The position numbers and the translations under genes were made by a program. A stretch of DNA of 64,000 bases from Acidimicrobiales bacterium mtb01 (GTDB lineage: Bacteria > Actinomycetota > Acidimicrobiia > Acidimicrobiales > Ilumatobacteraceae), in assembly GCA_004379135.1 (NCBI GenBank), contig NBNI01000007.1, positions 1,041,501 through 1,105,500 of the forward strand, given 5' to 3'. Shown one piece after another: positions 17,302 through 60,251 of the stretch. Each line of letters starts with the position of its first letter. Within the stretch, counting starts at the first letter, position 1. Under the pieces are notes generated by a model. It saw nothing but the letters and a program-made list of their open reading frames with translations, ran no database searches and was not told where the DNA came from.

Positions 17302-19689
17302 GTGGACAAGAAGGCCCTAAGCGAATCGGACATCTGTGACCGGTACATCACGCCGGCGCTCGAGCGCGCCGGCTGGGCCACCGAGCACTGGCGACGTGAG
17401 TTCGGGTTCACCGACGGCAAGATGATCGTGCGCGGCCAACTCGTCGCACGAGGGAAGCCGCGCCGTGCCGACTACCTCCTGTTCCACAAGCCCAACCTCC
17501 CGATCGCGGTAGTCGAAGCGAAGGACAACAACCACTCGGTGAGGGCCGGGATGCAGCAGGCGCTGGACTACGCCGAGCGGCTCGACGTGCCGTTCGTGTT
17601 CTCGTCCAACGGAGACGGCTTCGTGCTCCACGACAAGACCGGCACCTATCCGGCGACTGAGACGAACCTCACGCTCGACGAGTTCCCCACCCGCTCCGAG
17701 CTGTGGCGCCGCTACAAGATCTGGCGCGGCATCACGGACGACGTCGAAGCGCTCGTGACTTCACCGAACCACAGCGAGATCGGCGGCAAGGCGCCTCGGT
17801 ACTACCAGCAGTTGGCGATCAACCGAAGCGTCGAGGCCTTCGCCAAGGGACAGGACCGCATCCTCTTGGTGATGGCGACCGGAACCGGGAAGACGTACAC
17901 CGCCTTCAACATCATCTGGCGACTGTGGAAGAGCGGACAGGCGAAGCGAATCCTCTTCCTTGCGGATCGCAACATCCTTGTCGACCAGACGATCGTCAAC
18001 GACTTCAGACCGTTCGGCGAAGCGATGACCAAGCTCACCCGACGGCTCGTCGACCGGGATACCGGGCGTGTCGATCAGTCCTACGAGATCTACCTTTCGC
18101 TGTATCAGGCGATCATGGGTGACGAGGAACACGAAGCGATCTACGACAAGTTCCCACGCGACTTCTTCGACTTGATCGTGATCGACGAGTGCCATCGAGG
18201 GAGTGCCCGCGAGGACTCCGCCTGGCGCGACGTGCTCGGCTACTTCGATTCAGCCGTCCACCTCGGAATGACCGCCACGCCGAAAGAGACGAAGTACGTC
18301 TCGAACATCCACTACTTCGGCGAGCCCGTCTACACCTACTCGCTGAAGCAAGGCATCGACGACGGCTTCCTGGCGCCCTTCAAGGTCGTCCGCATCGATC
18401 TCGACAAGGACGTCCTGGGATGGCGACCGGAGCGCGGCGAAGTCGACGACCTGGGACTCGACATTCCAGACCGCATCTACAACCAGCTCGACTTCGATCG
18501 CGACATCACGTTCCCCGGCAGGACGAAACTCGTCGCCGAGCGCATCGCCGCGCACATGCATGCCGAGAACCCGATGCACAAGGCGATCGTGTTCTGCGAG
18601 GACATCGACCACGCGGAGCGCATGCGCGAGGCCCTGGTCAACATCCCCGAGAACCGCGCCCTCATCGCGCAGGATCATCGGTACGTGATGCGCATCACCG
18701 GCGACGAGATGGAGGGCAAGGCTCAGCTCGACAACTTCATCGACCCGAAGCAGAAGTACCCGGTGATCGCGACGACCTCCAAGCTGATGACAACCGGCGT
18801 CGATGCCCAGACGTGCCACCTGATCGTCCTCGACCAACGCATCCAGTCGCTCACTGAGTTCAAGCAGATCATCGGTCGCGGAACCCGGCTGCGCACCGAC
18901 TACGAGAAGTTCTTCTTCACCATCCTCGACTTCCGCAAGGCGACCGAACTGTTCGCGGATCCCGACTGGGACGGACCACCAATCCAGGATGAGAACTTCG
19001 GGGTGCTGCCGCCAGCGCCTGTCGAGCCGGATGAGGATGAGGTGTTCGACCCGAACGCCATCGCCGTCGTCCTGGTCGACCCTGATCCGATCGTCGATCG
19101 CTTCTTCGGCGAGGACAAGCGGCGACGTCGGTACGTCGTCAGCGGCGTTGAGTTCAGCGTGCTGGCGGAGCGTGTCCAGTACTACGACAAGGACGGCAAG
19201 CTCGTCACGGAGTCGCTGCGCGACTACACCCGTCGCACCGTGCACGAGGAGTTCACCTCCCTCGACGACTTCGTCAAACGATGGACGGAGACCGACCGGA
19301 AGCAAGCGATCGTCGACGAGCTTCTCGAGAAGGGCGTTCTCATCGACGCGCTCGAGGACAACTTCAGTGGCGACATGGACGCCTTCGACCTGATCTGCCA
19401 CGTTGCGTTCGACCAGCCGCCTCTCACGCGTCGCGAGCGCGCCGACAACGTTCGCAAGCGCGACGTGTTCACGAAGTACGGCGACACCGCACGAGCTGTT
19501 CTGAACGCCCTCCTCGACAAGTATGCCGATCAAGGCATCGATGCGATCGAAGACGTCACGGTGCTCAAGGTCGATCCTCTCGCTCGCCTCGGTACCACCG
19601 CTGAACTTGTGAAGAGCTTCGGCGGGCGCGGCGAGTACACCGAAGCCGTCCGCGAGCTCGAAGCCGAGCTCTACAAGAACGTCAACTGA
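17302..19689 (+). CDS. hsdR: Type I restriction enzyme, HsdR (restriction/translocation subunit)
   Basis: 795 aa. N-terminal nuclease: RADYLLF followed by AVVEAKD (~70) is the PD-(D/E)xK site. Then SF2 translocase motifs: Walker A MATGTGKT (~192-199), DECH box VIDECHRG (~294), GMTATP, and motif VI QIIGRGTRLR. This matches the EcoEI-like HsdR group in length and order. It cuts unmodified DNA after ATP-driven translocation in complex with HsdM and HsdS encoded directly downstream (16-base gap to hsdM). All key residues look intact. Confidence 0.95.
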   Translation: MDKKALSESDICDRYITPALERAGWATEHWRREFGFTDGKMIVRGQLVARGKPRRADYLLFHKPNLPIAVVEAKDNNHSVRAGMQQALDYAERLDVPFVFSSNGDGFVLHDKTGTYPATETNLTLDEFPTRSELWRRYKIWRGITDDVEALVTSPNHSEIGGKAPRYYQQLAINRSVEAFAKGQDRILLVMATGTGKTYTAFNIIWRLWKSGQAKRILFLADRNILVDQTIVNDFRPFGEAMTKLTRRLVDRDTGRVDQSYEIYLSLYQAIMGDEEHEAIYDKFPRDFFDLIVIDECHRGSAREDSAWRDVLGYFDSAVHLGMTATPKETKYVSNIHYFGEPVYTYSLKQGIDDGFLAPFKVVRIDLDKDVLGWRPERGEVDDLGLDIPDRIYNQLDFDRDITFPGRTKLVAERIAAHMHAENPMHKAIVFCEDIDHAERMREALVNIPENRALIAQDHRYVMRITGDEMEGKAQLDNFIDPKQKYPVIATTSKLMTTGVDAQTCHLIVLDQRIQSLTEFKQIIGRGTRLRTDYEKFFFTILDFRKATELFADPDWDGPPIQDENFGVLPPAPVEPDEDEVFDPNAIAVVLVDPDPIVDRFFGEDKRRRRYVVSGVEFSVLAERVQYYDKDGKLVTESLRDYTRRTVHEEFTSLDDFVKRWTETDRKQAIVDELLEKGVLIDALEDNFSGDMDAFDLICHVAFDQPPLTRRERADNVRKRDVFTKYGDTARAVLNALLDKYADQGIDAIEDVTVLKVDPLARLGTTAELVKSFGGRGEYTEAVRELEAELYKNVN

Positions 19690-19705
19690 CAAGGAAGCAC
19701 TCCGA

Positions 19706-21178
19706 GTGTCGCTCTCCACCACAATCAAGTCGCTGCAGGACATCATGCGCAAAGACGCCGGCGTCGATGGCGACGCGCAGCGCATCGGTCAGCTCGGCTG
19801 GTTGCTCTTCTTCAAGATCTACAGCGACCTCGAACTCGAGGCGGAGATCGAGGACGAGCGTTACGTCTCTCCGATCCCGAAGGGTCTGCACTGGTCCGAA
19901 TGGGCAGATCAGGACGCGCTGGGCAAGGACGCACCGACGGGCGAGGCACTGATCGACCTCGTCGAGAACCAGCTGTTCCCGAAGCTCAAGAACCTCGACC
20001 TCGACTCGCTGAACGGCAGGACCCGCGAACGAGGCGCACTACTCCGCGGAGTGTTCGAGGATGCCTTCAACTACATGAAGAACGGCACCCTGCTTCGACA
20101 GGTGATCAACAAGCTCAACGCGGACATCGACTTCAACCAGTCGAAGACCCGACACCTCTTCGGCGACATCTACGAGCAGATTCTCCGCGACCTCCAGAGC
20201 GCCGGCAACGCAGGCGAGTTCTACACGCCCCGAGCTGCGACACAGTTCGCCGTGCAGATGATCGATCCGAAGCTCGGAGAGACGATTCTCGACCCAGCCT
20301 GTGGCACTGGCGGCTTCCTCACTCACGCATACGCGCATGTCCAGGAGAAGGTCCGAACGCCCGATGACCTTGAGCTGCTCAAGCAGAGCATCCATGGTGT
20401 CGAGAAGAAGTCGCTTCCCCATCTGTTGTGCGTGACCAACATGATGATTCACGGCATCGAAGTGCCGAGCAACATCCGCCACGACAACACCCTCGCACGG
20501 CCGCTGCGCGACTACGGCAAGGCCGACCAGGTCGACATCATCCTCACCAACCCGCCCTTCGGCGGCATGGAGGAGGACGGCATCGAGAGCAACTTCCCAA
20601 CCGAGTTTCGCACTCGGGAGACTGCGGACCTGTTTCTGGTTCTCGTGATGGAGCTACTGAAGGACGGGGGTCGAGCCGCGATCGTGCTGCCGGACGGAAC
20701 CCTGTTCGGCGAAGGCATCAAGACGCGCATCAAGCGGAAGCTGCTCGAAGAGTGCAACCTCCACACCATCGTCCGCCTGCCGAACGGCGTGTTCGCACCG
20801 TACACGAGCATCAAGACCAACATCCTGTTCTTCACGAAGGGCCAGCCGACCAAGGAGGTTTGGTACTACGAGCACCCCTACCCAGATGGCTACCGGAGCT
20901 ACTCCAGGACGAAGCCAATGCGCATCGACGAGTTCGAGGCTGAACGGGCTTGGTGGACGCAACGAACCGAAACCAATCAAGCGTGGCGAGTCCCGATGGA
21001 GGACATCGCCGCGTCGGGCTTCAATCTCGACATCCGCAATCCGCACACCCTCGATGAGCAGCGTGTGGACCCTGACATGCTGTTGGCTCAGTTGAAGGAG
21101 GCGGAGGAGCAGGTTCGCACCGCCCAGCGGGCCCTACAGGCGCACCTCGCTGTAGCGCTTGGTTTGAGTCATGAATGA
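19706..21178 (+). CDS. hsdM: Type I DNA adenine methyltransferase, HsdM
   Basis: 490 aa from GTG 19706. The N-terminal HsdM helical domain (KSLQDIMRKDAGVDGDAQRIGQL region) precedes the N6-adenine methylase domain with SAM-binding DPACGTGGFL (~195) and catalytic NPPFGG (~282). Modifies adenine in the sequence chosen by HsdS and is required for restriction. Its last eight bases overlap the hsdS start, so the two are translationally coupled. Confidence 0.95.
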   Translation: MSLSTTIKSLQDIMRKDAGVDGDAQRIGQLGWLLFFKIYSDLELEAEIEDERYVSPIPKGLHWSEWADQDALGKDAPTGEALIDLVENQLFPKLKNLDLDSLNGRTRERGALLRGVFEDAFNYMKNGTLLRQVINKLNADIDFNQSKTRHLFGDIYEQILRDLQSAGNAGEFYTPRAATQFAVQMIDPKLGETILDPACGTGGFLTHAYAHVQEKVRTPDDLELLKQSIHGVEKKSLPHLLCVTNMMIHGIEVPSNIRHDNTLARPLRDYGKADQVDIILTNPPFGGMEEDGIESNFPTEFRTRETADLFLVLVMELLKDGGRAAIVLPDGTLFGEGIKTRIKRKLLEECNLHTIVRLPNGVFAPYTSIKTNILFFTKGQPTKEVWYYEHPYPDGYRSYSRTKPMRIDEFEAERAWWTQRTETNQAWRVPMEDIAASGFNLDIRNPHTLDEQRVDPDMLLAQLKEAEEQVRTAQRALQAHLAVALGLSHE

Positions 21179-22904
21179 ACGCCAGATACTCCAATACGTC
21201 GGAGAACTCGCATCCGCTCCACAAGGTGCTGACCGGATTCGAGATCTGGTACTCGATCTCGCCGTACGCGGGAAGCTGGTCGGACAGTTACCAACGGATG
21301 TGAACCCGAGCAAGGCCGTGGAGCGCTCCGGAGCCGAAGGAGGGCACCGGTCAAGTCGAAGCCATTTCGTCCAGGCAGGAACGGCCTCGGAAACCATCGC
21401 CGCTCCATTCCGAGTTCCGGACGGCTGGGTATGGTCCAGGATAGACGAATGCTTCGAGGTCACGGGCGGCATACAGAAGACCGGTAGGCGACGGCCGGCT
21501 GGAAACGCAACGCCTTACCTTCGAGTGGCGAACGTGCAGCGGGGCCGACTCAATCTGGATGTCTTGGAGGAGTTTGAGCTGTTCGACGGGGAACTGGATC
21601 GCTACGGGCTTCGAGCCGGCGACTTGCTCGTGGTCGAGGGCAACGGAAGCGAGTCAGAGATTGGGCGGTGTGCTCGCTGGGGCGGCGAGATTGAGGAGTG
21701 CGTCCATCAGAACCACCTCATCCGCTGCCGTCCTCTCGTTGCAGGCCTTGAAGAGTTCGTGCTGGTGTATCTCAACTCCCCACTCGGCGCGGCGACGATG
21801 AGGAGCCTTGCAGTAACGACGAGCGGCCTGTACAACCTCAGCGTCGGAAAGATCCGCTCGATCATGTTTCCGAGGCCACCTATCGAAGAACAACGGCGAA
21901 TCGTCACTCGGGTTCGCGAGCTAGCTCAACTGAATGACACTCTCGCGCTACGGCAAGCTGAACTCGGCAGGGCCGCTGCGATCTCACGGTCCGCCTCATT
22001 CGACGCCCTGGCGAGGGCTGAAGAGCTCGATGGGACTTCGGCCGCCTGGAGTCGGCTCGGTTCCAAATGGGAGTTAATGACCGGGGCCGCACAAGGTGTC
22101 GCTGACTTGCGGAGCCTGCTGCTGCGACTTGCGGTTCGAGGCAAGCTTGCTCGTCAGTCCGTTGATGATGAGCCGGCATCCGTGCTGCTCGAACGCGTAG
22201 CGCGAACACGGCAAGATATGGCGAACGGTCGATCCCGGCCATTGCGGGACATCCCCGCCTTGGACCTCGGCGACGTCCCTCCGATGCGATTGCCACCAGG
22301 TTGGGCCTGGTGCCGACTGGGCCACGTTCTCAGCCTATGTCGCAATGGCATAGCGACAGCCACCAACAACCAAGGCAAGGGCTTCGCCCTGCTTCGGATC
22401 AGCGCCGGAACATCGCGGTCGGACCGAATGGTAAATCTCGACGATCACACGCATGCCGACGTCACCCCTGAGAAGGCGTTGGCCTACTGCATGGACCCCG
22501 GCGATCTACTGGCGTGCCGGTTCAACGGGAATCTCCGATTCGTCGGCGCCGTCGCGCAGGTCCCAGCTGCACTGGCCGGACCCATCCTTCATCCCGACAA
22601 GCTGATCCGCATGAAAGCGATTGAGGTGAGCCACGACTACCTCCGCTTGGCACTCAACTCTGACGTTGTGCGACTTCAGGTCGAGCGCTCCGCAGCTACC
22701 ACGGCCGGGAACATCGGCATCAACGGTGCCCAGCTCCAGCGGCTCGTGGTCCCGGTTCCGCCTCTGGCCGAGCAAGCTCGAATTGCCGAAACATGCGATC
22801 GTCTCTTCGCATCGATCCAACATCTCCAGACAGTTTTGGATAGACGTGAAGCGGCCGCCAGGGCGTTCGCTCGCTCGAGTTCTGAATTGGCCTTTCTCGC
22901 CTGA
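21171..22904 (+). CDS. hsdS: Type I specificity subunit, HsdS
   Basis: 577 aa with the two target-recognition domains expected. TRD1 begins around WVWSRIDECFEVTGG and contains YLRVANVQRG; TRD2 begins around WAWCRLGHVLSLCRNG. Each is followed by a long helical conserved region (PPIEEQRRIVTRV and PPLAEQARIAETC). The N-terminus contains an extra conserved helical segment. The recognition sequence cannot be read off. It ends 100 bases before the first structured repeat. Confidence 0.93.
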   Translation: MNERQILQYVGELASAPQGADRIRDLVLDLAVRGKLVGQLPTDVNPSKAVERSGAEGGHRSSRSHFVQAGTASETIAAPFRVPDGWVWSRIDECFEVTGGIQKTGRRRPAGNATPYLRVANVQRGRLNLDVLEEFELFDGELDRYGLRAGDLLVVEGNGSESEIGRCARWGGEIEECVHQNHLIRCRPLVAGLEEFVLVYLNSPLGAATMRSLAVTTSGLYNLSVGKIRSIMFPRPPIEEQRRIVTRVRELAQLNDTLALRQAELGRAAAISRSASFDALARAEELDGTSAAWSRLGSKWELMTGAAQGVADLRSLLLRLAVRGKLARQSVDDEPASVLLERVARTRQDMANGRSRPLRDIPALDLGDVPPMRLPPGWAWCRLGHVLSLCRNGIATATNNQGKGFALLRISAGTSRSDRMVNLDDHTHADVTPEKALAYCMDPGDLLACRFNGNLRFVGAVAQVPAALAGPILHPDKLIRMKAIEVSHDYLRLALNSDVVRLQVERSAATTAGNIGINGAQLQRLVVPVPPLAEQARIAETCDRLFASIQHLQTVLDRREAAARAFARSSSELAFLA

Positions 22905-23004
22905 AGAACGCGCATCAGAGCCGCCACTGCAATCGAGGTCGAGCACTTCGTCTGAGCGGTCCTGCGTCGGCATGAGAGGCGCACGAGGAGCCGCCCTACC
23001 TGAC

Positions 23005-23120
23005 GTTGCCGCCCATCGGGCGGGTGCAGTGGTGCGTCGCCGCTCGCTTGCCGGTCAAGCCCCTCGTTCCTCGGGGCCGAGCCCTTCGGGTTGACCGGCG
23101 CTCGTCGTCGACGCCACCCG
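23005..23120 (+). repeat. Structured repeat R1, upstream of ardC
   Basis: First of three ~117-bp copies (others 24284-24402 and 24945-25063). It begins GTTGCCGCCC and contains a CCGCCC/GGGCGG hairpin. A long-range helix follows: GCGTCG with CGACGC outside and GCCGGTCAA with TTGACCGGC inside, around a CTCGGGGCCGAG apical stem. It ends GACGCCACCCG. The ardC ATG follows 33 bases later, after AGGAG. Comparison with the other copies shows compensatory changes, so the fold rather than the sequence is conserved. Confidence 0.75.
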
Positions 23121-23153
23121 TGCGGGCGAAACCCGGCACGAGGAGACGTCGAG

Positions 23154-24059
23154 ATGAAGGTAGAGGAACTGTTCGAGAAGGTGACCGTTGACCTGATTAC
23201 AGCAATCAAGGATGGAGCGAAGGACTGGCGCATGCCGTGGCACGGTCTCGGCGGCGCCGGACTCCCACGGAGCGCAGACGGTCGGCCCTACCGTGGGTGG
23301 AATTCGCTGGTGCTGGCGATGGTCGCGGCGGATCGGAGCTGGAAGTCGTCGACGTGGGCGACCTACCACGCGTGGAAACGCCACGGCGCGCAGGTTCGCC
23401 GGGGCGAGCGTGGCATACAGGTCGTTCTCTGGAAGCCGACAGAGCGACACGAGACCAGCGAAGACGGCGGCAACTCCCTGCGGCGCTCGCTGTTTGCTCG
23501 AGCCTTCACAGTCTTCGCCGCCGAGCAGGTGGACGGGGCAGAAGGGTTTACGACGCCGTGGGCCGCCGAAGACGACGCCCGGCGGATCGAGGCCGCCGAG
23601 GCCTACTTCGCAGCCGTGGGCGCCGACGTGGTCCATGGCGGAGACCAAGCGTGCTACGTCCCGAGGCTGGACCGAATCCACCTTCCGCACCGCCACCAGT
23701 TCGAGCAGATCAGCGACTACTACTCGACCGCCGCACACGAACACACCCACTGGACCGGGCACACCGGTCGACTCGGTCGTGACCTTTCGGGCAGGTTCGG
23801 CGATCACGCATACGGCGCCGAAGAACTCGTCGCAGAGTTGGGCGCTGCCTTCTGGTGCGCTCAGTTCGAACTCGACCAGGCGACGCGCGAAGACCACGCC
23901 GCCTACCTCGGCGACTGGTTGGCGCTCCTGCAGAGCGACTCGCGGGCGCTCGTGGCCGCGTGTGGACATGCTCAGCGAGCGGTCGACCATCTGAACACCC
24001 TTGCTGGCTGGTCGCCCCCCGGCGGGTCCATCGACGAGCCGCTCGAGGTCGCGGCGTGA
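23154..24059 (+). CDS. ardC: ArdC-family antirestriction / ssDNA-binding protein with zincin domain
   Basis: 301 aa from ATG 23154 with AGGAG eight bases upstream. The N-terminal ArdC domain (PWHGLGGAGLPRSADGRPYRG, then RNSLVL-like WNSLVLAM and HGAQVRRGERGIQVVLWKP) binds single-stranded DNA. The C-terminal metallopeptidase domain carries HExxH as AHEHTHWTGH, with EELVAELGAAF supplying a downstream acidic residue. Known ArdC proteins protect incoming conjugative DNA in the recipient. Located right after a type I restriction operon and before the relaxase, and preceded by repeat R1. Followed by an overlapping small gene. Confidence 0.88.
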   Translation: MKVEELFEKVTVDLITAIKDGAKDWRMPWHGLGGAGLPRSADGRPYRGWNSLVLAMVAADRSWKSSTWATYHAWKRHGAQVRRGERGIQVVLWKPTERHETSEDGGNSLRRSLFARAFTVFAAEQVDGAEGFTTPWAAEDDARRIEAAEAYFAAVGADVVHGGDQACYVPRLDRIHLPHRHQFEQISDYYSTAAHEHTHWTGHTGRLGRDLSGRFGDHAYGAEELVAELGAAFWCAQFELDQATREDHAAYLGDWLALLQSDSRALVAACGHAQRAVDHLNTLAGWSPPGGSIDEPLEVAA

Positions 24060-24220
24060 GCGTCGACGATGCGATGAAGGAGCTCCGCCGCTTCGCCTGG
24101 GCGGCGGAGCTCGATCACCGACAGATCATCGCCATCACAGTCGCATGTTCGGCGCTGGACGGTCGTCGGGGCACGAAGGCTCCAGGCCAGGGATCGGACC
24201 AGGTACCGACGACCGGGTGA
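24056..24220 (+). CDS. 54-aa small protein overlapping ardC stop
   Basis: GTG at 24056 overlaps the ardC TGA by GTGA, the same junction used throughout this region, and opens a 54-codon frame. It begins VSVDDAMKELRRFAWAAEL and has a helical, charged first half and a Gly/Pro-rich tail. The overlap implies translational coupling to ardC. No family recognised. It could be a partner or modulator of ArdC, which is inference from position only. Confidence 0.5.
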   Translation: MSVDDAMKELRRFAWAAELDHRQIIAITVACSALDGRRGTKAPGQGSDQVPTTG

Positions 24221-24283
24221 GTGGTGCAGTGAGCGGTCGCGTGAGTGGTGACGCTCACCGTCGGCACGCCGGCCGCTCGTGCC

Positions 24284-24402
24284 GTTGCCGCCCTTCGGGC
24301 GGGTGCGGTGGGTGCGTCGCTGCTCCCACCCCGTCAAGCCCGCTCGCAAGCTCGGGGCCAAGCCCTTCGGGTTGACGGGGTGTTCGCGAGCGACGCCACC
24401 CG
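24284..24402 (+). repeat. Structured repeat R2
   Basis: Second copy, same layout as R1. The first hairpin has a CTTCGG loop (UUCG tetraloop in RNA). The inner long-range helix is CACCCCGTCAA with TTGACGGGGTG, where R1 has GCCGGTCAA/TTGACCGGC: several G-C pairs have flipped to C-G with pairing kept. The outer helix is the longest of the three (GCGTCGCT/AGCGACGC). It ends 109 bases before the ATG at 24512; a further GCCCGCCC/GGGCGGGT stem lies in that gap. Confidence 0.75.
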
Positions 24403-24511
24403 TACGAGCAAGCCCGCCCACTCAATGGGCGGGTCGCCGGTCGGAGCGGTCGAGTCTTGGGGAAGCACTCGGCCGCTCCGCTTGGACACCCGAATCCCCG
24501 AGGAGCCAACG

Positions 24512-24889
24512 ATGAACGACACGACCCGACCGACGAGCGTGCGAGTGATCGCCGACCACAGCGACGGCCCGCACCGCACCGACAGCGACGACGTCTGGTG
24601 GTGGCTGCCCGTCCTGGGGCCGACCGCCACCGTGCTCGCCTACCTGCTTGCCCGTCATGCTGCCTACAGCGAGACCTGCTGGGACACCACGGTGCTCGCC
24701 CGATCGGTTGGCCTCGCAGGGAACCGGTGCAAGCTGTGGGCCAGCCTGGAGCGACTCAGCCAGTTCCACGTGGTCACGTTCGTCGCCACCGATGTAGTGA
24801 CGGTCCGCCTGAACCTGCCGTCGCTCACGGAGCGGCAACTCGCCTGCCTCCCCGAGTGTCTGGCGATGATCTATCAGCCGACTGCCTGA
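24512..24889 (+). CDS. 125-aa protein, possible winged-helix DNA-binding type
   Basis: Starts at ATG 24512 after GAGGAG. Residues ~35-100 (LGPTATVLAYLLARHA, WDTTVLARSVGLAGNRCKLW, LERLSQFHVVTF) resemble a winged-helix pattern with a recognition helix and wing strands. No confident family. It stands alone between repeat R2 and a strong terminator hairpin, so it is a self-contained transcription module. Possible roles are regulator of the accessory block or plasmid-type control protein. Confidence 0.6.
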   Translation: MNDTTRPTSVRVIADHSDGPHRTDSDDVWWWLPVLGPTATVLAYLLARHAAYSETCWDTTVLARSVGLAGNRCKLWASLERLSQFHVVTFVATDVVTVRLNLPSLTERQLACLPECLAMIYQPTA

Positions 24890-24895
24890 CCACTC

Positions 24896-24926
24896 GTGGC
24901 GAGCGGCACCCTCCGCCGCTCGCCAC
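24896..24926 (+). terminator. Strong GC hairpin terminator
   Basis: GTGGCGAGCGG (24896-24906) and CCGCTCGCCAC (24916-24926) form a perfect 11-bp stem with a nine-base loop, six bases after the stop codon of the preceding gene. No U-tract follows. It separates that gene from repeat R3, so the genes after R3 need their own promoter. Confidence 0.75.
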
Positions 24927-24944
24927 GCTCGGCGTAGCGGTGAC

Positions 24945-25063
24945 GTTGCCGCCCTTCGGGCGGGTGCAGTGGGCGCGTCCCCGCTCACGGCCGGTCAAGC
25001 CCACTCGCAAGCTCGGGGCCGAGCCCTTCGGGTTGACCGGCCGTTCGTCGGCGACGCCACCCG
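24945..25063 (+). repeat. Structured repeat R3
   Basis: Third copy. Its inner helix is the longest (ACGGCCGGTCAA with TTGACCGGCCGT, 12 pairs), again differing from R1 and R2 at paired positions. The first hairpin has the TTC loop as in R2. The core ends 48 bases before the ATG at 25112. Because a terminator precedes it, R3 or its flank is expected to contain the promoter for the two small genes downstream. Confidence 0.75.
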
Positions 25064-25111
25064 TAACGACGAGCCCGGCATCCCAACGGGGCGAACGACA
25101 GGAGCAGCGAT

Positions 25112-25357
25112 ATGGACCCGACCGCGACCGTGCGCATCATGCGCGACACCGACAACGAGTTCGACGAACGGATCGACGCCGCGCGAGATCTGATCGCTTG
25201 GCTTCACGGCGGTGGCTTCACGCCCGCGGGCGAAGATCGAGTCGCACTCCTCGACGAGGCCGGCCGACTCGCTCGACCTGCATTCGACGTCGCTCCGGAC
25301 GAACACCTCGAGGCCGCCTACGAGGACCGCTTCGCTGACGACGAGGTGTGGTCATGA
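25112..25357 (+). CDS. 81-aa hypothetical protein, acidic
   Basis: ATG 25112 with AGGAG upstream. Rich in Asp/Glu (FDERIDAARDLIAWLHGGG, FADDEVWS). Helical at the start; no recognised domain. Its stop overlaps the next gene's start (ATGA, 25354-25357). Small acidic proteins are common as DNA mimics or accessory factors in conjugative leading regions, but no DNA-mimic family can be named here. Confidence 0.6.
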   Translation: MDPTATVRIMRDTDNEFDERIDAARDLIAWLHGGGFTPAGEDRVALLDEAGRLARPAFDVAPDEHLEAAYEDRFADDEVWS

Positions 25358-25665
25358 TCGTTGACCCGTCGACTGTGGTGATCACGGCGTACGTTGCCGA
25401 TTGGGCCGACGACGACATCGAGCGGCAAGCGTGGCTGGCCGAATGCCTCGCCCGCCACGACAACGGCGACTGGGGCGACCTCGACCACGACGACCGCGCA
25501 GCAAACCAACTCGCAATCCGCCGTCACGAAGGTCGACTCCTCTCGCGCTTCGTGGTCCCGGAATCGCTGACCGCCGACACCGACGAGGACGCCGTGTGGA
25601 TCATCACCGATGACCTCGATGATCCCGACACCGCAACGACCATCCTTTGGCCGAGCGACTACTGA
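25354..25665 (+). CDS. 103-aa hypothetical protein, very acidic
   Basis: ATG 25354 overlaps the upstream stop. Contains several Asp-rich stretches (ADWADDDIERQAWLAE, WGDLDHDDRAANQL, ITDDLDDPDTATTI), giving a strongly negative predicted charge. No known family recognised. Such charge would suit DNA mimicry of the antirestriction kind, in keeping with ardC nearby, but this is inference. It ends 12 bases before the convergent YaaC-like gene. Confidence 0.58.
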   Translation: MIVDPSTVVITAYVADWADDDIERQAWLAECLARHDNGDWGDLDHDDRAANQLAIRRHEGRLLSRFVVPESLTADTDEDAVWIITDDLDDPDTATTILWPSDY

Positions 25666-25677
25666 CCCATCCTCGAC

Positions 25678-26703
25678 CTACACGGGCTGGAGCGCCTGAT
25701 GAAGTAGCTGCGGAACTGCCACCATCGCTTCGTCCAGCGCGGCCTCCAACGCAACGGCGTCGTCGTTCTGATCGATGCGAAGCGCACGGAGCCAGGAGGC
25801 CGGCTCGTACCGGGCGAGCATCGAAGTGGCAAAGAGCACGGCCCACCACGTTACGAGCGGATGCAGTGGCCGGTCGTTTCCGGCGAGCGCCGGGGCGACC
25901 CAGGACTCGCCGTTCGGACGGACCTGACACATGCGCAGGATGCGCTCACGTCGGTGGTAGTCGAAGGTTCCATCGGCCTGCCACATGAGGCGCACACCCT
26001 TCGCGCCCGTCTCGTCGAATCCGATCGTCACCGGGCGATCGTCCGCGCCCGGGATCTCGAAGCCGACCATCGTCGGGTAGTTGGCGAGATCGGCAGAGAG
26101 AGCAGCTCGCTGCTCGGAGACGGAGAGCACGCTGTACTCGCGACGGAGCCCGTACACCATTGCGCCCGCCACGGACGTCGAGGTTGAGTCGACGACGGGA
26201 CCACCGAAGGTCTCCGCGAGCTGATATCGCTCGCGCACGATTCGCAGCGCCGGTGCGCCGCCGGCGCTGACCGGCATCGAGTCGACGACGTCCGGAAGCG
26301 ACGCACACAGGTCGCCGAGCCTCACCTCGGTCGGCAAGGAGGGCGACGCCAAGATGTCTGCGATCCTCCTGAAAGCCCCCTGCTTCTGGTTCTTCAGCTC
26401 GATGTCCCACGTCGCCCCATCCAGCCTGGCGGCGCCGATCCCGTGTCCGCGGAGCACCCAATCATCGAGCGCGATCGCTGCCGCCACGGCGCGACCACCC
26501 TGGCTGAGGGCGTAGAAGAGCGGGAGTGGACGAGCTTCGTAGCCCACACTCGCCGCAGCTTCAAAGAGCTGCTCGCACTGCTCGAGCGCGGCGCTGAACG
26601 TCTCGGAACGCTCCGCCAGACCACCAAGAGCCGGCGGACGGGCACGGAGAGCTCGAAGCTGTCGCCAAGTAGCGCGAGCAGTCGTCGAGTCGAACCGGAG
26701 CAT
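25678..26703 (-). CDS. YaaC-like protein
   Basis: 341 aa from ATG 26703. The C-terminal HPLVTWWAVLFATSMLARYEPASWL and the N-terminal ALSQGGRAVAAA match the pattern I recall for the YaaC family, whose function is unknown. The earlier in-frame start (26820) would run into the relaxase upstream region and lacks conservation. Divergent from the relaxase gene with about 150 bases between; whether it belongs to transfer, defence or neither cannot be told. Confidence 0.6.
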   Translation of the reverse strand: MLRFDSTTARATWRQLRALRARPPALGGLAERSETFSAALEQCEQLFEAAASVGYEARPLPLFYALSQGGRAVAAAIALDDWVLRGHGIGAARLDGATWDIELKNQKQGAFRRIADILASPSLPTEVRLGDLCASLPDVVDSMPVSAGGAPALRIVRERYQLAETFGGPVVDSTSTSVAGAMVYGLRREYSVLSVSEQRAALSADLANYPTMVGFEIPGADDRPVTIGFDETGAKGVRLMWQADGTFDYHRRERILRMCQVRPNGESWVAPALAGNDRPLHPLVTWWAVLFATSMLARYEPASWLRALRIDQNDDAVALEAALDEAMVAVPQLLHQALQPV

Positions 26704-26851
26704 GCGGAAAGCGTATGTGGAGCCGCGAGCACCTGCTCGCGCTGGCATGCCGGCCAGAGCGACGTCCGCACACCCGAATCCCTGGTGCCCGAGGGGCGGT
26801 CTTCTTGCACAGATAATCACCCAAGGGTGGACGGGCGTGTCCGTTGGGGTC

Positions 26852-29800
26852 GTGCTCTCGATCGCGAAGCTCCGCGTGGGGCAGGAGGCGTACCACCTGT
26901 CGGGCGTCGCTCAGTCGCTCGACGCCTACTACACGGGGGCTGGCGAGGCGAACGGTGTGTGGGTGGGCGGCGGAGCGAAACGACTGGGTCTCGACGGTGA
27001 GGTCGTCGCCGAGGATCTTCAGGCGGTACTCGCAGGCCTGGCTCCTGGAGTTGGCGGCCTGACACCCAACGGAGATCAGCAGCACCCGCACCCCCGCCGC
27101 GTTCCAGGCTTCGACCTCACCTTCAAGGCGCCGAAGTCTGCCTCAGTGCTCTACGCGGTGTCGGACGACCCGCGCGTTCAGGGAGCGATCATCGAGGCGG
27201 GCGAGGTGGCGATGACCGCGGCCATCGGCTGGATCGAGCGGGAGGCGATCCGCGTCCGGCGTGGCTCGCACAACCAGGCGTGGCTTGCGGCTCACGCCGA
27301 CGAGCCAGGTGCTGGGCCTCGGCAGCTGCCCACATCGGGAGTCGTCGCAGCGTCGTTTCGCCACCGCACGTCCCGGGCGGGCGACCCGCTGCTCCATTGG
27401 CACACCCTCGTCGCCAACCTCGCCGAGGGCACCGACGGCAAGTGGTCGGCGTTCGCGCACCCCGACCTGTACCGGCACGTCCGGGCGGCCGGCGAGGTCT
27501 TCCAAGCGGTGTACCGCACCGAACTGTCGCACTCACTCGGCGTCGAGTGGCGACCCGGCCGGCATGTGCCGGAGATCGCCGGAGTACCGCAGCAGCTGAT
27601 CGACACCTTCTCGAAGCGCACCACCGAGGTCGACGCGTGGCTCGCCGCTACGAGTACTCCCGACACGCCGGAGGGCCGACAGGCGGCGGTGCTCGCGACC
27701 AGGAGGCACAAGCGCGAGCTCGAAGGGAATCGCTTCGACGAGGCCTGGAAGATCGAGGCCCATGCTGCCGGATGGGGTCCAGCGGAAGCTGAACGGCTGG
27801 TCGGTTGGTACCAGGCGCGCACCGCGCCAACGTTCGACGAGGTCTGGCGGCTCGACAGCGTCGCGTTCGACGAACTCGGTAACCCCGAGCACATCGAGCG
27901 AGTCGTGGATCCCGAGGAGTGGATCGAGCACGTGCTCCGCGTGGACCTGACGAGCGATCGATCGACGTTCACCGAACCCGACCTCGTTCGCGCCATCGCT
28001 GCGCGTCAGGGGCACGGTGCGACCATGGAGACGCTGGAGCGGATCGCGGCTCGGGTGCTCGCTTCACCGCAAGTTGTCCCTGTCGAAAGTGGCCGTGAGG
28101 GCTTGCAGCGGTGGACGAGCCGAGCGCTGATGGACATCGAGTCGAAGTTCATCAGTGCCCTGGACGCGCGCGCCTCCGGGGTCGCCGTGCCGCCGGATCG
28201 AGTTGACTCGACCATCGCTGCCTTCGACTCGCTCGGGATCGACCAGGCGGCGGCCGTGCGGGCAATAGGAACCGCCGAGAGCCACGTGATCGTGCTCGTC
28301 GGGCCAGCCGGGACCGGCAAGACGTTCACCATCGACGCAGTACGCAGCGCGTTCGAGGGTGCCGGCTGGCTCGTGCACGGAGCGGCACCGTCGGCACGAG
28401 CAGCTCTTGAACTGGAAGGCGGCGCACACGTCCCTTCCCGCACTCTCCACTCGCTACTGCACGCATGGGACTCCCAACACGACACACCCACTCTTCACTC
28501 GCTCCTCGTCATCGACGAGGCAGGGATGGCCGACATCCGAACGCTTCAGGCCGCCGTTACCCGCCAAGTGGCGGCTGGCGGACGAGTGCTGCTGGTGGGC
28601 GACCACCACCAGCTGCCAGAGGTCGGGGCGGGTGGTGGCTTTGCGTACGCCGCGGCCCACTCATCCGCCGTCGCTGAACTCACGGTGAACCGGCGCCAAC
28701 GGCACGAGTGGGAACAGGCGGCGCTGGAGCAGATTCGAACCGGCAGCGTGGCCCGAGCAGTCGAGGCCTACCTCGCGAACGAACGTGTGGTCGTAACGGA
28801 GACCCACGACGACATGATCAACAGTGCGGTCGATCGGTGGTTCGCAGCCCGAAGGGACGGCCTCAACCCCGTCCTGCTCTCCGGCACGAACCAGACCGTC
28901 GACCGATTGAACGCCGCCGTCATTGCACGACTCATCGAGAATGGTGAGCTGACCGACGACGCTGCAGGTTTCGGATCTCACTCGTTCCGTATCGGCGAGC
29001 GCGTGGTCGTCCGGCGGAACAGCACGGAACGAACGGTCGACGGCGACCTGCACGACATAGCCAACGGCCAGGCGGGCGTCGTCACGGCGGTCGAGGACAC
29101 GCACATCACTGTCCGGCTCGACGCCGGCGGGGAGGTCACGCTGACGGATCGTTACCTCCGGCGCGGAGGTGCACTCACGCACGCTTATGCGCTGACCACT
29201 CACCGCGCCCAAGGAGGCACGTGGGACCTCGCCATCGCCGTCGGAGCGGACGGCCTGTACCGCGAAGGTGCGTACGTCGAGCTGTCACGTGGGAGCCACG
29301 AGAACTGGATCATTCTCACCGATCCCGAGGCGGCTGAGCTTCACCGCCAGGCCTCCACGGAGATTCGGCGGCACGACAGCGACCTGACGCCCGACTGGGA
29401 CCGTACCAGCGATGTCGAGGAGGACCTTGTCGAACGAGTGAGCCGGTCCCACGCCAAGCAGCTCGCCCACAGCCTCGACCCCGACCTCGAGCGCGTCGAT
29501 CACCTCGCGAGGCGCTGGTCCCTCAGTGAGCTCGAGGGACGGCGAGACGCGGCGCTCGCCGCCGAGCTGAGCGCGACCAGCCAACTCGGACACAACTCAC
29601 TCGACCTTCTCGAACAGCTCACTCATGTGGAGACCATCGCCCGACACATGTCGATCGGCGCCACCTTCAGCCCCGGCGACCGCCACAACCTCGGCACCGT
29701 GGTCGCGTTCGACGACACCGCGGGGACCTCGACGCTCCACTTCGTCGCCGAGAGCGGACGCGAGGCCACCAGGGCGTTCGACTGGGCAGACCTTCGCATC

Positions 29801-30562
29801 GTCGAAGCACACACTCCCGATCCCCGACTACTCACTCAGGCAGCGGAGCAGCACCTCGCTGCCCGCCGTGCCGAGGCTGACCTGTTGATCGAACACTGGG
29901 ACAACCACCTCCGATCTCACGGTGTCGAGCCGGGGGACGCACGGGTCTTCAGGCGGGCCGTGCAACAACACGTAGAGGCTGCGGCCAATGCACTTGCGGC
30001 GGATCAACCGACGTGGCTGACGAAGCTCGTCGGCCAGCGACCCCTCGACGTCGTTGGCGCCGTCACGTGGGACGACGCCGTCAAGGCAATCGCGCACTGG
30101 CGGTCGCGTCGTCAGCTACCCCCCGGCGTGGACGGACTCGGCCCTCGACCGGAAGTCGATCACGCCGCGACCCAATGGGAGCGACTGCAGGAGCACCTCG
30201 CCTTCACCCGAACGTGGCTCGCAACGACGGATCGACTGGAGGTTCAACCGCTTCAGGCTCCAGCTCCGGACGAACTCATTGGCCGCCGAGCCGAACTGCA
30301 TGCGATCCTGGACGCTGCGCCAGCCGACTGGCGGCATGTCATCGCCGACCTCGCCGCCGGCCAACTCACGCTCGATGACACGGCCGAACTCCTTCGCGAC
30401 GCCCTCAACGGCCAGGCCGAGCGCCGAGCGTGGATCCTCGAGCACTGGCCCCACGTCGTCGAGTTGCAGGAAATCGATCGGGAGCTGGCATCGATGCCAC
30501 GGGATTGCGCCATCGATCCTGGGACATTCGATCTCGAATCCGGAGCAGACCTGGAGTTCTGA
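26852..30562 (+). CDS. MobF-family conjugative relaxase-helicase (TraA/TrwC type)
   Basis: About 1236 aa. N-terminal TrwC relaxase: LSIAKLRVGQEAYHLSGV, then metal-binding histidines in DPLLHWHTLVANL (~180). The C-terminal RecD-like helicase has Walker A VGPAGTGKT (~483-491), Walker B LVIDEAGMAD (~550), GDHHQLPEVGAGG and YALTTHRAQGGTWD. It nicks at oriT, stays bound to the 5' end and unwinds the strand for transfer. GTG 26852 fits the family N-terminus; GTG 26837 is an alternative. An oriT is expected close by but I could not identify one. Confidence 0.93.
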   Translation: MLSIAKLRVGQEAYHLSGVAQSLDAYYTGAGEANGVWVGGGAKRLGLDGEVVAEDLQAVLAGLAPGVGGLTPNGDQQHPHPRRVPGFDLTFKAPKSASVLYAVSDDPRVQGAIIEAGEVAMTAAIGWIEREAIRVRRGSHNQAWLAAHADEPGAGPRQLPTSGVVAASFRHRTSRAGDPLLHWHTLVANLAEGTDGKWSAFAHPDLYRHVRAAGEVFQAVYRTELSHSLGVEWRPGRHVPEIAGVPQQLIDTFSKRTTEVDAWLAATSTPDTPEGRQAAVLATRRHKRELEGNRFDEAWKIEAHAAGWGPAEAERLVGWYQARTAPTFDEVWRLDSVAFDELGNPEHIERVVDPEEWIEHVLRVDLTSDRSTFTEPDLVRAIAARQGHGATMETLERIAARVLASPQVVPVESGREGLQRWTSRALMDIESKFISALDARASGVAVPPDRVDSTIAAFDSLGIDQAAAVRAIGTAESHVIVLVGPAGTGKTFTIDAVRSAFEGAGWLVHGAAPSARAALELEGGAHVPSRTLHSLLHAWDSQHDTPTLHSLLVIDEAGMADIRTLQAAVTRQVAAGGRVLLVGDHHQLPEVGAGGGFAYAAAHSSAVAELTVNRRQRHEWEQAALEQIRTGSVARAVEAYLANERVVVTETHDDMINSAVDRWFAARRDGLNPVLLSGTNQTVDRLNAAVIARLIENGELTDDAAGFGSHSFRIGERVVVRRNSTERTVDGDLHDIANGQAGVVTAVEDTHITVRLDAGGEVTLTDRYLRRGGALTHAYALTTHRAQGGTWDLAIAVGADGLYREGAYVELSRGSHENWIILTDPEAAELHRQASTEIRRHDSDLTPDWDRTSDVEEDLVERVSRSHAKQLAHSLDPDLERVDHLARRWSLSELEGRRDAALAAELSATSQLGHNSLDLLEQLTHVETIARHMSIGATFSPGDRHNLGTVVAFDDTAGTSTLHFVAESGREATRAFDWADLRIVEAHTPDPRLLTQAAEQHLAARRAEADLLIEHWDNHLRSHGVEPGDARVFRRAVQQHVEAAANALAADQPTWLTKLVGQRPLDVVGAVTWDDAVKAIAHWRSRRQLPPGVDGLGPRPEVDHAATQWERLQEHLAFTRTWLATTDRLEVQPLQAPAPDELIGRRAELHAILDAAPADWRHVIADLAAGQLTLDDTAELLRDALNGQAERRAWILEHWPHVVELQEIDRELASMPRDCAIDPGTFDLESGADLEF

Positions 30563-57851: not shown

Positions 57852-58283
57852 TCAGCCTCCCTCCTCGCCAGTCACCCCGCGCTGAGCAACCGCCGTTGCG
57901 CTACCGCTCACACTCGCAGGGAAGCCGGGGGCGGGAAATGCGTAGCCAACTCCCGCCGACACCGTGACAGTGACCGTCTCACCGTCCACGGACACGTCGC
58001 CCGAGTAGCCCGCGGCGGCGATAATCGCCTCGGCACGTTCGACCGCGGCAGCCTCGTCGATCACACCGCCAGAGCGCAGTGCAGTCGGGTCACCCTGGGC
58101 TCCCGCACGAGCGGCCGCCGCGGCTATGGCATGAGCGTCGCGACGCGCTGACCACTGCTGTGTGGCCGACACGAGCGACCAACAGCCGAACATGAGAAAC
58201 ACGACGAGGATTGCGGTCATCGGCATGACCGAACCTCGGTCGCGCCCGTCGGCCGGGAAGCGACACCCGACGGGGCACTTCAC
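57852..58283 (-). CDS. TadG/TadE-like pseudopilin
   Basis: 143 aa from GTG 58283, GTGA overlap. N-terminus RDRGSVMPMTAILVVFLMFG is a prepilin-type leader plus single membrane helix; the rest is a small extracytoplasmic domain with VSVDGETVTVTVSAG. Belongs to the minor-pilin set of the Tad system, which is exported and processed by a TadV-type peptidase (not in the window). Confidence 0.68.
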   Translation of the reverse strand: MKCPVGCRFPADGRDRGSVMPMTAILVVFLMFGCWSLVSATQQWSARRDAHAIAAAAARAGAQGDPTALRSGGVIDEAAAVERAEAIIAAAGYSGDVSVDGETVTVTVSAGVGYAFPAPGFPASVSGSATAVAQRGVTGEEGG

Positions 58284-58714
58284 CGCTGCCCTCCTCGAAC
58301 GAGGTCGACCTGTTCCACCCCGCGGCCAGAGACCGTGCGACTGCCCGGGAAGCCAGCGAGCACGACGTCCGCAAGCGACACGTTGCACGTCACTTCGACC
58401 ACGACCACACTGCCAGGTGACAGATCGCCATCCAACGTGACGCCGAGGTTCTGGCAAGCAACGCCTCGGGCGGCCAGCGTTTGTGCGGCGACGACCTCGG
58501 CCGCTGCCGAGGCCGAACCCTGGTCGTACTCCGCCGCCGCCGCACGAGCTGCGGAACGAGCAGCGGCATCGACGTCGCCGCCGCTGCCGACGACGCGGAT
58601 CGCGCCGATGATGAAGAATCCGACGAGCAAGAGCGAGGTGACGGCGATGGCCGCCTCCACGCCAGCAGACCCACGGTCGTCGTGCTGCCTCGGACGTTCG
58701 GTCGCTTCCCTCAT
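58280..58714 (-). CDS. TadE-like pseudopilin
   Basis: 144 aa, ATG start at 58714 in an ATGA overlap. Leader DDRGSAGVEAAIAVTSLLLVG with Glu at +5 after the glycine, a TadE signature. Helical N-terminal spine followed by a domain with two Cys (GVACQNLG, EVTCNVSLAD). Second of three minor pilin genes in a row. Confidence 0.72.
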   Translation of the reverse strand: MREATERPRQHDDRGSAGVEAAIAVTSLLLVGFFIIGAIRVVGSGGDVDAAARSAARAAAAEYDQGSASAAAEVVAAQTLAARGVACQNLGVTLDGDLSPGSVVVVEVTCNVSLADVVLAGFPGSRTVSGRGVEQVDLVRGGQR

Positions 58715-59094
58715 GGCGCGCCTTGCGGATCGAACGACTCGACCTTGGCGGTCGCCTGCGCCCTCACCGTGATCGTCCCGAAGAACGGCAGGAGTGAGAC
58801 GACCTCGCCACTCGCCGAGACCGTGACCGTCTGGCCATCAGAGCTCCCCGACGCCGAGTACGAATCGAGCAACGAGCCACCGCCTTCGTCGATGAGGTCC
58901 TCTGCCAACGCGGCGCCGGACTCGGGCGACGAGTCCTGCCGAGCGGCGGCAGACGCTCCGTCCTGTGTCGCGCCGGCAAGGACCTGCCTGGCGTAGTAGG
59001 CCAACCCGTACTGCACGACGAACAGCATCGTCAGGAGCACGAGTGGGACCACGAGCACGGTGGCCGTGACCTCGCCTCGATCACGTCGCCTCAG
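58711..59094 (-). CDS. TadE-like pseudopilin with probable CTG start
   Basis: 127 aa. RDRGEVTATVLVVPLVLLTM is the prepilin leader and membrane spine; the tail has ASGSSDGQTVTVSASGEV. No ATG, GTG or TTG lies close upstream in frame. A CTG at 59094 overlaps the upstream stop as CTGA, matching the NTGA junctions used by its neighbours. The longer ORF to 59394 reads through the Flp-like gene and looks artefactual. Confidence 0.65.
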   Translation of the reverse strand: MRRRDRGEVTATVLVVPLVLLTMLFVVQYGLAYYARQVLAGATQDGASAAARQDSSPESGAALAEDLIDEGGGSLLDSYSASGSSDGQTVTVSASGEVVSLLPFFGTITVRAQATAKVESFDPQGAP

Positions 59095-59303
59095 GGTTCC
59101 GGCACGTTGTTGGCGTTGTTGGCGATCTTGATCGCAATCACCCCGCCGGCCGCGATGGCAGCGATCACCAGGATCACGATCAACGCAGTTGTCGCGGTCA
59201 CTTCGCCACGATCTCGTTCGTCGCTGGCCTGGGCCAGTCGTTGCCGCGTCGCCGCCGCAGCGCGAAGCCACGCCGACCAGAGTTGTACCTGTAGTCCCAG
59301 CAT
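59091..59303 (-). CDS. Flp/DUF4244-like small pilin
   Basis: 70 aa from ATG 59303 with AGGAGAGGAG upstream. A basic N-terminal leader ends at RDRGEVTATTALIVILVIAA, followed by a short polar tail (IANNANNVPEP). Size and shape fit the main pilin of actinobacterial Tad loci (Flp or DUF4244 group). The leader motif RDRGEVTAT is shared exactly with the next gene, suggesting processing by the same peptidase. Confidence 0.75.
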   Translation of the reverse strand: MLGLQVQLWSAWLRAAAATRQRLAQASDERDRGEVTATTALIVILVIAAIAAGGVIAIKIANNANNVPEP

Positions 59304-59390
59304 GGCTGGTGCTCCTCTCCTTTGTGCCGGTCGACAATGGACGTGGCTCGTGATGGGCCGGAACATCACGACGGCTTCGGTTGAGCGACC

Positions 59391-60251
59391 TCATGGCGAC
59401 GAGAGCGCGGCCAGCGCCGGGTAGCCGATGAGGACAAGGAACCCCGCGAACATCAGGGCGACAGGGAGGACCATGGTTTCGGAGCGCGACTGCGCTTCCG
59501 ACTCGATCTGCGAGAGGTCCTTGATTCGGATGGCCGTTGCCTTGGCTGTCAGCGAGTCACGAACCTGGGCACCTCCACCAGCGAGGGTCATCGACGCCTC
59601 GAGTTCCTCCAGCTCGACGATGCCCAGCCGATCGCCGAGTTGGCCGAGAGCGCGCCATGGAGGTTCGCGTCGAGCTTGAGCCGCCGACAGCGCTGCGCGC
59701 AGATGGCGGAACGGACCGCCGCGTCCAACAGCCACCGCATCGAACATCGCTGTCTCGACGCCAGCTCCACCTGACATCAAGATGGTCACCAACTCCAGGT
59801 ACCCAGCGAGGCCATGGCGGAAGGCGCGTCTCGCCTTGTCGGCATCGGAGGCCAGGTCGATACGTGCATAGAACCACCCGCCGATCGCACCGACGGCGGC
59901 GGCTCCGATTGCCACGAACGGTGAAACGAGGCCAGCGCCGCCGGCGGAGAGCAGCACGAATGCCATGCCGGGGGAGGCAAGAAGTAGCGACCAGACGAGT
60001 CGGTCCTGCACCCATCGAGCGACGTCGCGTTCGCAGACGGCCAGATCGCGATCGCGCGTCGGTGAGCTGGCGCCCGCCAGCCATCCAACCGCGCGTCCAC
60101 GATGGTCGATCGGTGCTTCAAGGCGCCGTGGACGATGGAGCTCGGCAACGAGAGCTGAGAGGGGCGTGGTGGAACCGACGAAGCCCCTGACGACCAGGAG
60201 CAAACCCGCGCCGGCCAATCCACCTGCCAGTGCGACCATGAACACGTTCAC
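59391..60251 (-). CDS. tadC: TadC-like inner-membrane platform protein
   Basis: 286 aa, ATG 60251, overlapping the tadB stop. T2SS-F domain in the middle (ARRAFRHGLAGYLELVTILMSGGAGVETAM, shown in part) with flanking membrane helices (NVFMVALAGGLAGAGLLLVV; VALMFAGFLVLIGYPALAAL). With TadB forms the platform through which the ATPase assembles the pilus. Confidence 0.85.
   Translation of the reverse strand: MNVFMVALAGGLAGAGLLLVVRGFVGSTTPLSALVAELHRPRRLEAPIDHRGRAVGWLAGASSPTRDRDLAVCERDVARWVQDRLVWSLLLASPGMAFVLLSAGGAGLVSPFVAIGAAAVGAIGGWFYARIDLASDADKARRAFRHGLAGYLELVTILMSGGAGVETAMFDAVAVGRGGPFRHLRAALSAAQARREPPWRALGQLGDRLGIVELEELEASMTLAGGGAQVRDSLTAKATAIRIKDLSQIESEAQSRSETMVLPVALMFAGFLVLIGYPALAALSSP

Follow-up and report, generated by a model that had tools for sequence, protein, structure and literature searches.

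A 64,000-nucleotide stretch of the genome of Acidimicrobiales bacterium mtb01 (assembly GCA_004379135.1, contig NBNI01000007.1, forward-strand positions 1,041,501 to 1,105,500; hereafter the window, with coordinates counted from its first letter) carries three copies of a structured repeat before genes of a plus-strand cluster that includes the anti-restriction gene ardC and lies upstream of a TrwC (MOBF) relaxase gene. Judged from its sequence and those of its relatives, the repeat is a covarying multi-hairpin unit kept before each gene of a small set including ardC, and it is collinear with the relaxase gene. This leader family is real and, so far as literature and Rfam searches reach, undescribed; it is novel as a variant and not as a kind. 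We propose, with a probability of roughly 0.45, that the repeat controls the establishment genes of a MOBF element by acting as folded single-stranded DNA, in the manner of Frpo/ssi and with no relatedness implied.

The initial annotation of this DNA placed copies at 23005-23120, 24284-24402 and 24945-25063, and all three are there, far above chance: the pattern GTTGCCGCCCNTCGGGCGGGTG has three matches in the window at up to three mismatches, compared with 0.01 expected. The repeat it described is real but extends beyond the ~117 bases assigned to it. The units span about 23001-23135 (copy 1, before ardC), 24280-24418 (copy 2, before the gene g2) and 24941-25078 (copy 3, before g3), all on the plus strand, and across the family the unit measures about 135-190 nt. 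In copy 1, hairpin A occupies 23009-23023, GTCAA 23054-23058 and TTGAC 23091-23095, and the 3' part runs to 23135. GTCAA and TTGAC lie at 24333-24337 and 24372-24376 in copy 2, and at 24994-24998 and 25033-25037 in copy 3. Genome searches recovered these three copies and no others from the 2.56-Mb genome, where the window lies within a 1.3-Mb contig. The motif was not recognised at the outset, which was borne out: no Rfam family matches the repeat, and across the whole window nothing reaches a gathering threshold (best 26.7 bits versus a gathering value of 50, off the copies). Literature searches gave no description of the motif among the matches listed. A translated repeat was ruled out because single-base indels between the copies break the frame, and an integron attC array, in which genes also lie between direct hairpin repeats, was ruled out by eye because the GTTRRRY/RYYYAAC cores are absent.

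The layout common to the relatives is hairpin A with conserved linkers (TGCCGTG/TGMCGTTG-type) on its flanks, then hairpin B, then a short 3' hairpin. Copies from G177, G628, G287 and G167 have two tandem A hairpins with the linker repeated between them. In the stem of hairpin B, GTCAA faces TTGAC and the adjacent outer pairs change in compensation, as first described from the three window copies. GTCAA is kept in all 36 true B-bearing copies (39 table rows minus three chance matches) and TTGAC in 35, the exception being ATGAC, although the models were built from GTCAA/TTGAC copies and are thus biased toward finding them. The apical loop of hairpin B measures 30-41 nt. Across 25 distinct stems, the first six pairs outside GTCAA are Watson–Crick in 122 of 150 cells, which none of 2000 shuffles matches. 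The three pairs just outside GTCAA are G-C, C-G or T-A in 69 of 75 cells, the other six never being G-T. These stems pair in register in 75% of cells, compared with 28-42% when slid.

We also analysed a wider alignment of 19 copies (MAFFT, not structure-fitted), in which 21 pairs were counted. Paired cells make up 91.2%, versus 82.3% in shuffles and 26-45% when slid, and the covariation score is 0.145, versus 0.040 in shuffles. Neither the pairing nor the score is reached in any of 500 shuffles; these shuffle statistics ignore the relatedness of the copies. Both sides change in six of the 21 pairs (equalled in 20 of 500 shuffles), and further pair types are no more numerous than in shuffles (7 versus 6.5; 254/500). 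Hairpin A is near-invariant in close relatives, with 98% of cells paired and no covariation, and its stem varies solely in distant copies. The GCGTC...GACGC outer helix of the initial annotation holds in one sequence type but not elsewhere, with 75% of cells paired overall. In many copies hairpin B is followed by a 3' hairpin with the pattern CCC-GTN-GGG. An invariant 5-bp helix inside a covarying stem, together with a loop of 30-41 nt, suggests that the repeat may be recognised as a folded duplex rather than as a fixed-spacing double-stranded operator.

The genes behind the leaders form a consistent class, in line with the early description of the repeats as preceding ardC and small genes. 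Neither outcome named in the initial annotation as a refutation, a lack of covariation in a wider alignment or of a consistent class of downstream genes, was observed. Copies precede ardC, g2, g3, the 'NRPEPVA' family (L007, L061, G177, G628) and one other gene (L063); a copy in L024 precedes, by eye, a ParA-like ATPase. For 32 labelled copies of the 36 (L025, two of L027 and L009 being left out), the best match lies before the same gene class in another element in 27 of 30 testable cases, compared with a shuffle mean of 8.3 (0/1000), and 24 of 26 copies are nearer another element's copy than a sibling. Best matches thus follow gene class across elements, indicating old orthologous leaders and not a spreading repeat.

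A first model (R1), built from the three window copies with flanks and used in the first search only, matched 5 of 149 genomes, own genome included. With a pattern of hairpin A plus linker, 17 loci were recovered from named genomes. By eye 12 are convincing, all from Actinomycetota metagenome-assembled genomes, two labelled Ilumatobacteraceae. The pattern loci L015, L019, L021, L022 and L028 were judged to be chance. Matches of a second model (R2), built from 19 copies, were judged by eye. In the order sample it matched 10 of 397 genomes, own included (six true, three chance, namely G120, G154 and G345, and G429 ambiguous), in the class sample 9 of 395, own included (four true, five chance), and in the phylum sample its own genome alone among 396. 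These samples overlap, so their counts are not summed, and they are lower bounds because the stricter filtering applied to large samples misses weak copies. Nothing new was found among four and six genomes from the families of G177 and G287. In G429 (L040 926-997) a lone hairpin A with TGCCGTG linkers stands before an unrelated gene and is either chance or a stray A-only copy. A lone copy in L020 (3675-3945, minus strand; the same as L006) is followed by an apparent truncated ardC start in G731, which has no matching relaxase, and is probably a fossil of the element.

The initial annotation had suggested searching actinobacteria and plasmids with a covariance model. Relatives were found in actinobacteria but not among PLSDB plasmids, where a search with copy 2 gave one unrelated coding match and nothing else. 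This match, to a Paracoccus plasmid, was rejected: it covers 35 bases that by eye are part of a coding stretch, and the 5' hairpin is missing. The exact hairpin A and linker pattern had no matches in viral contigs, and phages gave no match at E 0.01. When the search was led by the relaxase, 7 of 390 class genomes matched at 1e-60. The repeat is present in all four with relaxase identity of at least 64% (G000, G177, G628 and G289); the motif had already led to the first three, leaving G289 as the sole independent case. Its two copies keep GTCAA/TTGAC (the first at E 4e-6, the second at E 0.5 and recognised by eye through its linker as well), and G289 is absent from the R2 matches in the order and class samples. 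The three genomes with relaxase identity of 50% or less (G044, G060 and G183) gave nothing below E 0.1 with the repeat model. The leader family belongs to MOBF elements of Acidimicrobiia-type genomes, the class being inferred from the Ilumatobacteraceae labels.

In all 12 contigs in which both were placed (the window, L029, L023, G177, G628, G167, G386, L016, L017 (/L072), L018, L031 and L092), the leader cluster lies upstream of trwC and shares its strand. L018 and L031 were placed by contig overlap; the remaining contigs either stop too early or, as for L020/G731, lack a relaxase. In the window, the TrwC open reading frame spans 26702-30562 (plus), and because its conserved N terminus, LSIAKL, begins at 26855, translation probably starts further downstream than 26702. 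Upstream of trwC the minus strand carries a site of the form CACC-loop-GGTG-ATTATCT-GTG. In the window it occupies 26806-26829, where the hairpin CACCCTTGGGTG is followed by ATTATCT^GTGCA, the nick being predicted to fall between the complements of 26811 and 26810. The relaxase motif LSIAKLRVGQEAY was recognised in 14 of 17 scanned loci (16 distinct relaxase loci, as L063 and L071 are one contig, G386). In all 14 the nic-like site precedes the motif by 47-99 nt, always in one orientation, with genes on the plus and nic-like site on the minus strand. The leader cluster is adjacent to such a site. G386 has CACAGA at a similar distance without an inverted repeat (a partial site), L074, whose relaxase is 39% identical, has no nic-like site, and in G289/L092 the site is present by eye.

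An inverted repeat followed by a cleavage sequence like TATTGTCT^A beside the relaxase gene is the arrangement of a MOBF nic, and CACC..GGTG followed by ATTATCT^G has it. Our comparisons with described systems draw on PMC8708921, PMC11541004, PMC9849209, PMC4176350 and PMC4814116. The R388 nic reads GCACCGAAAGGTGCGTATTGTCT/ATAG, and a purine is required directly after the nick. That base is G here. The conserved R388-like site is possibly the core of an actinobacterial MOBF oriT, of which we found no description. If the site is nic, the minus strand would leave first via g4, g3, g2 and ardC and would be their template. Further right, the window encodes an SSB and an ATPase resembling coupling proteins, and has a weak match to TraC that stays under the cut-off; no tRNA gene was found. 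We conclude that the ardC–trwC region belongs to a conjugative or mobilisable element that is either integrated here or placed here by misassembly.

On the reading that we favour, the relaxase would nick the minus strand at 26810/26811, so that g4, g3, g2 and ardC would reach the recipient first, with the incoming strand as their template. The repeat would fold in this strand, and hairpin B would provide a duplex with a TTGACA-like -35 element some 17-19 nt from the stem end, with unpaired linker DNA alongside. Hairpin B would recruit the RNA polymerase of the host, which would transcribe the gene from DNA that is still single-stranded, the 3' hairpin marking the mRNA start; conversion to duplex would abolish the fold and turn the gene off. 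A more specific version is an actinobacterial single-strand promoter without a -10 box, in which a TTGACA duplex sits one spacer from the fork between double- and single-stranded DNA and the polymerase starts on open DNA. We regard this version as speculative and rather doubtful; were it true, anti-restriction genes would be expressed solely during entry.

The spacing of the cluster bears on where transcription starts. A terminator-like 12-bp hairpin follows ardC (24080-24112, plus), and a hairpin of 13 bp stands after the g2 stop (24895-24927, plus) and leaves 13 nt before copy 3. Nine junctions were examined, and five short ones (the window, L029, L024 and two in L031) have a 7-16 bp hairpin after the stop and 11-13 nt to the next copy. 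Among the four longer junctions, one leaves ~19 nt and three leave at least 60 nt. Before copy 1 no junction hairpin was found. No sigma-70 site is predicted in 22900-26900, a weak negative given that 0.3 would be expected by chance. Since the short junctions leave 11-13 nt and no sigma-70 site was found, the start signal should lie inside the repeat. There, TTGAC in the covarying stem is -35-like, so that a stem rebuilding a -35 box is found in 35 of 36 copies. Measured on the non-template arm, the distance from TTGAC to the stem end is 17-19 nt in 21 of 34 folded copies (4-59 overall; two further copies not being folded in this count), which is where RNA polymerase would open the DNA.

Several observations weigh against folded single-stranded DNA as the active form. 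No -10 box (a hexamer with at least 4/6 matches including A2 and T6 of TATAAT, or TANNNT) was found on either arm of the 36 copies at spacers of 15-19 nt from TTGAC. As this box is missing and no similarity was found, we do not assign the repeat to Frpo; the lack of the box speaks most strongly against a plain copy of Frpo. The three longest junctions have room for a promoter, the lack of sigma-70 sites has the low expectation given above, and the junction hairpins, which have no T run, are absent from terminator predictions, the two in the window included. The stem-length figure is post hoc and soft, and the other arm is little looser (21-23 nt in 16 of 34). A-only copies without hairpin B exist (L016, L017, L046 and L055), and G044 and G060 have a related relaxase and g2 without the repeat. 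We infer that 26806-26829 is nic from its resemblance alone. Finally, the tests of which strand folds disagree, as described below.

The alternative that survives best, although we consider it unlikely, is a structured 5' leader RNA: the plus-strand transcript would fold and block readthrough or attenuate the establishment genes, like EGeRS1 of pLS20. The gene class is the same in pLS20, and a repeated structured leader stands before ardC there too (PMC8708921). The copies here are close to the start codon, with TTGAC 63-146 nt away in the ardC and g2 cases with a gene assigned, and two overlapping alternative 3' hairpins have GTA and GAA loops on the coding strand. A permissive stem count favours RNA, with 87 G-T versus 42 A-C when read on the coding strand, although this count includes register errors and related copies. 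A strict mismatch count leans to the other strand, with 3 G-T versus 7 A-C contexts among 29, one of the seven coming from a chance match. There is no G-U in the 21 pairs of the 19-copy alignment, yet the first six pairs of the 25 distinct stems contain 6 G-T and 9 A-C cells among 150, and these leave the folding strand open. An invariant stretch in a stem would be more typical of DNA than of RNA recognition.

Folding energies are similarly divided. The z scores of copies 1-3 are -1.4, -5.6 and -2.2 on the plus strand and -2.3, -5.7 and -4.7 on the minus strand, so that the window copies beat shuffles by more on the minus strand, which is weak evidence. By minimum free energy, the coding strand folds more stably in 10 of 19 copies and its complement in the remaining 9. 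In region A, 26 triloops read TNC on the coding strand (GNA on the other), versus six others judged true A loops, after 13 of 45 counts were dropped as not hairpin A. GNA loops are stable in DNA. The triloops of the 3' hairpin point to the opposite strand, being GTA or GAA on the coding strand in 18 of 19. The initial annotation had proposed a switch between partners of GGGCGGGTG, and we obtained no evidence for such an RNA switch; given the position beside the putative nic site, a single-stranded DNA function on the transferred strand is at least as likely.

Another alternative, which we consider improbable, is an array of double-stranded operators or promoters that is repressed by a regulator of the element, with g2 as the candidate, and relieved on entry, like EGeRS2/Reg of p576. 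The winged-helix model of g2, its presence in many clusters and an extra conserved hairpin C in its leader would suit this, but half-site spacing varies over the 30-41 nt of the loop, the stems covary as though pairing mattered, no sigma-70 promoter was found (a weak point), and in structure g2 comes closest to a primosome protein (E 2.9e-3) and not to a repressor. A priming site (ssi/sso) for complementary-strand synthesis, before genes by happenstance, is very unlikely: the hairpins are on the presumed transferred strand, g2 is weakly like DnaD/DnaB-type primosome proteins and Frpo primes as well (by the title of Masai and Arai 1997), but priming alone would not need gene-by-gene upkeep or one-direction placement before start codons.

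The genes themselves are all on the plus strand. ardC (23154-24059) encodes ArdcN and MPTase-PolyVal domains. g2 (24512-24889) has a confident winged-helix AlphaFold model (mean pLDDT 87.8). Foldseek returned no solved match for it at 1e-3, the best being the primosome protein DnaB mentioned above, and one g2 relative touches GntR at E 5e-4, below the Pfam cut-off. On this modelling, g2 is probably a DNA-binding protein. Hairpin C (24443-24479, plus; loop CTTGGGGAAG) was recognised by eye in the g2 leader, and a similar hairpin (CTTGGGGAAG or close variants) precedes g2 in relatives, including, by eye, G044 and G060. In these two genomes the g2 leaders (L093 8093-8513; L094 upstream of 3295, minus) have a GGGGAAG hairpin and AT-rich inverted repeats (AAAATACT..AGTATTTT and ATCAAAAAC..GTTTTTGAT) in place of the GC-rich repeat, and are possibly an alternative leader of the same regulon. 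g3 (25112-25357, 81 aa) has no Pfam family, and g4 (25354-25665, 103 aa) resembles SpdB very weakly, at E 0.023 and short of the cut-off. Scanning g3, g4 and the other small genes for known families gave no firm result, the best match being PHROG 865 HNH at E 1e-4 for the g3 relative of L031. Anti-defence or establishment functions are candidate roles for the small genes under the leaders. Inside its leader cluster, G177 also encodes a protein that is ParB-like by eye (L057 3055-4779).

Elsewhere in the window, a type I restriction-modification operon (hsdR, hsdM, hsdS; 17302-22904) lies upstream of ardC, beyond it in the presumed leading region. A YaaC-like gene (25678-26820, minus) lies between g4 and trwC; the close relative L029/L066 has no room for one. 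At 58280-62592 (minus), a T2SSE ATPase with TadE- and T2SSF-like genes below or near cut-off suggests a Tad-type pilus cluster beside the conjugation genes.

Hairpin devices of establishment genes are known so far mainly from E. coli and Bacillus plasmids, and the Frpo type from enterobacterial plasmids. Like Frpo/ssi of F and ColIb-P9, the family described here is a repeated hairpin sequence before what would be leading-region genes, including anti-restriction genes, with a TTGACA-like element in the stem; it also adjoins what would be a MOBF-type transfer origin, with the transferred strand as the presumed template. Frpo has canonical -35 and -10 boxes (PMC9849209), whereas the present repeat is very GC-rich and has no -10 box, and its single-strand transcription is proposed from sequence features. 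Nor was similarity to Frpo found, as judged indirectly by comparing copy 2 with PLSDB plasmids. The 2024 survey reports anti-defence genes with this same template geometry.

EGeRS2/Reg of p576 is likewise an establishment regulon in which ardC and the gene of a small DNA-binding-type protein are under the same leader, but no sigma-70 promoter was found here and g2 is modelled as a winged helix, not a ribbon-helix-helix. With EGeRS1 of pLS20 the family shares several diverged, structured, GC-rich copies before ardC and other establishment genes and the lack of a recognisable promoter. No promoter is detectable in EGeRS1, which in one orientation halts transcription arriving from upstream (PMC8708921), and its unit is 420-750 nt with a conserved 325-nt branch, compared with ~135-190 nt here. 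The transferred strand is the non-template strand in pLS20 and would be the template here, and the present repeat has no PLSDB match. The authors of the pLS20 work leave the EGeRS1 mechanism open, in part because the transferred strand is the non-template strand (PMC8708921). With the opposite geometry predicted here, together with a putative nic and elements that each carry several orthologous copies, single-strand transcription in a Gram-positive setting becomes directly testable.

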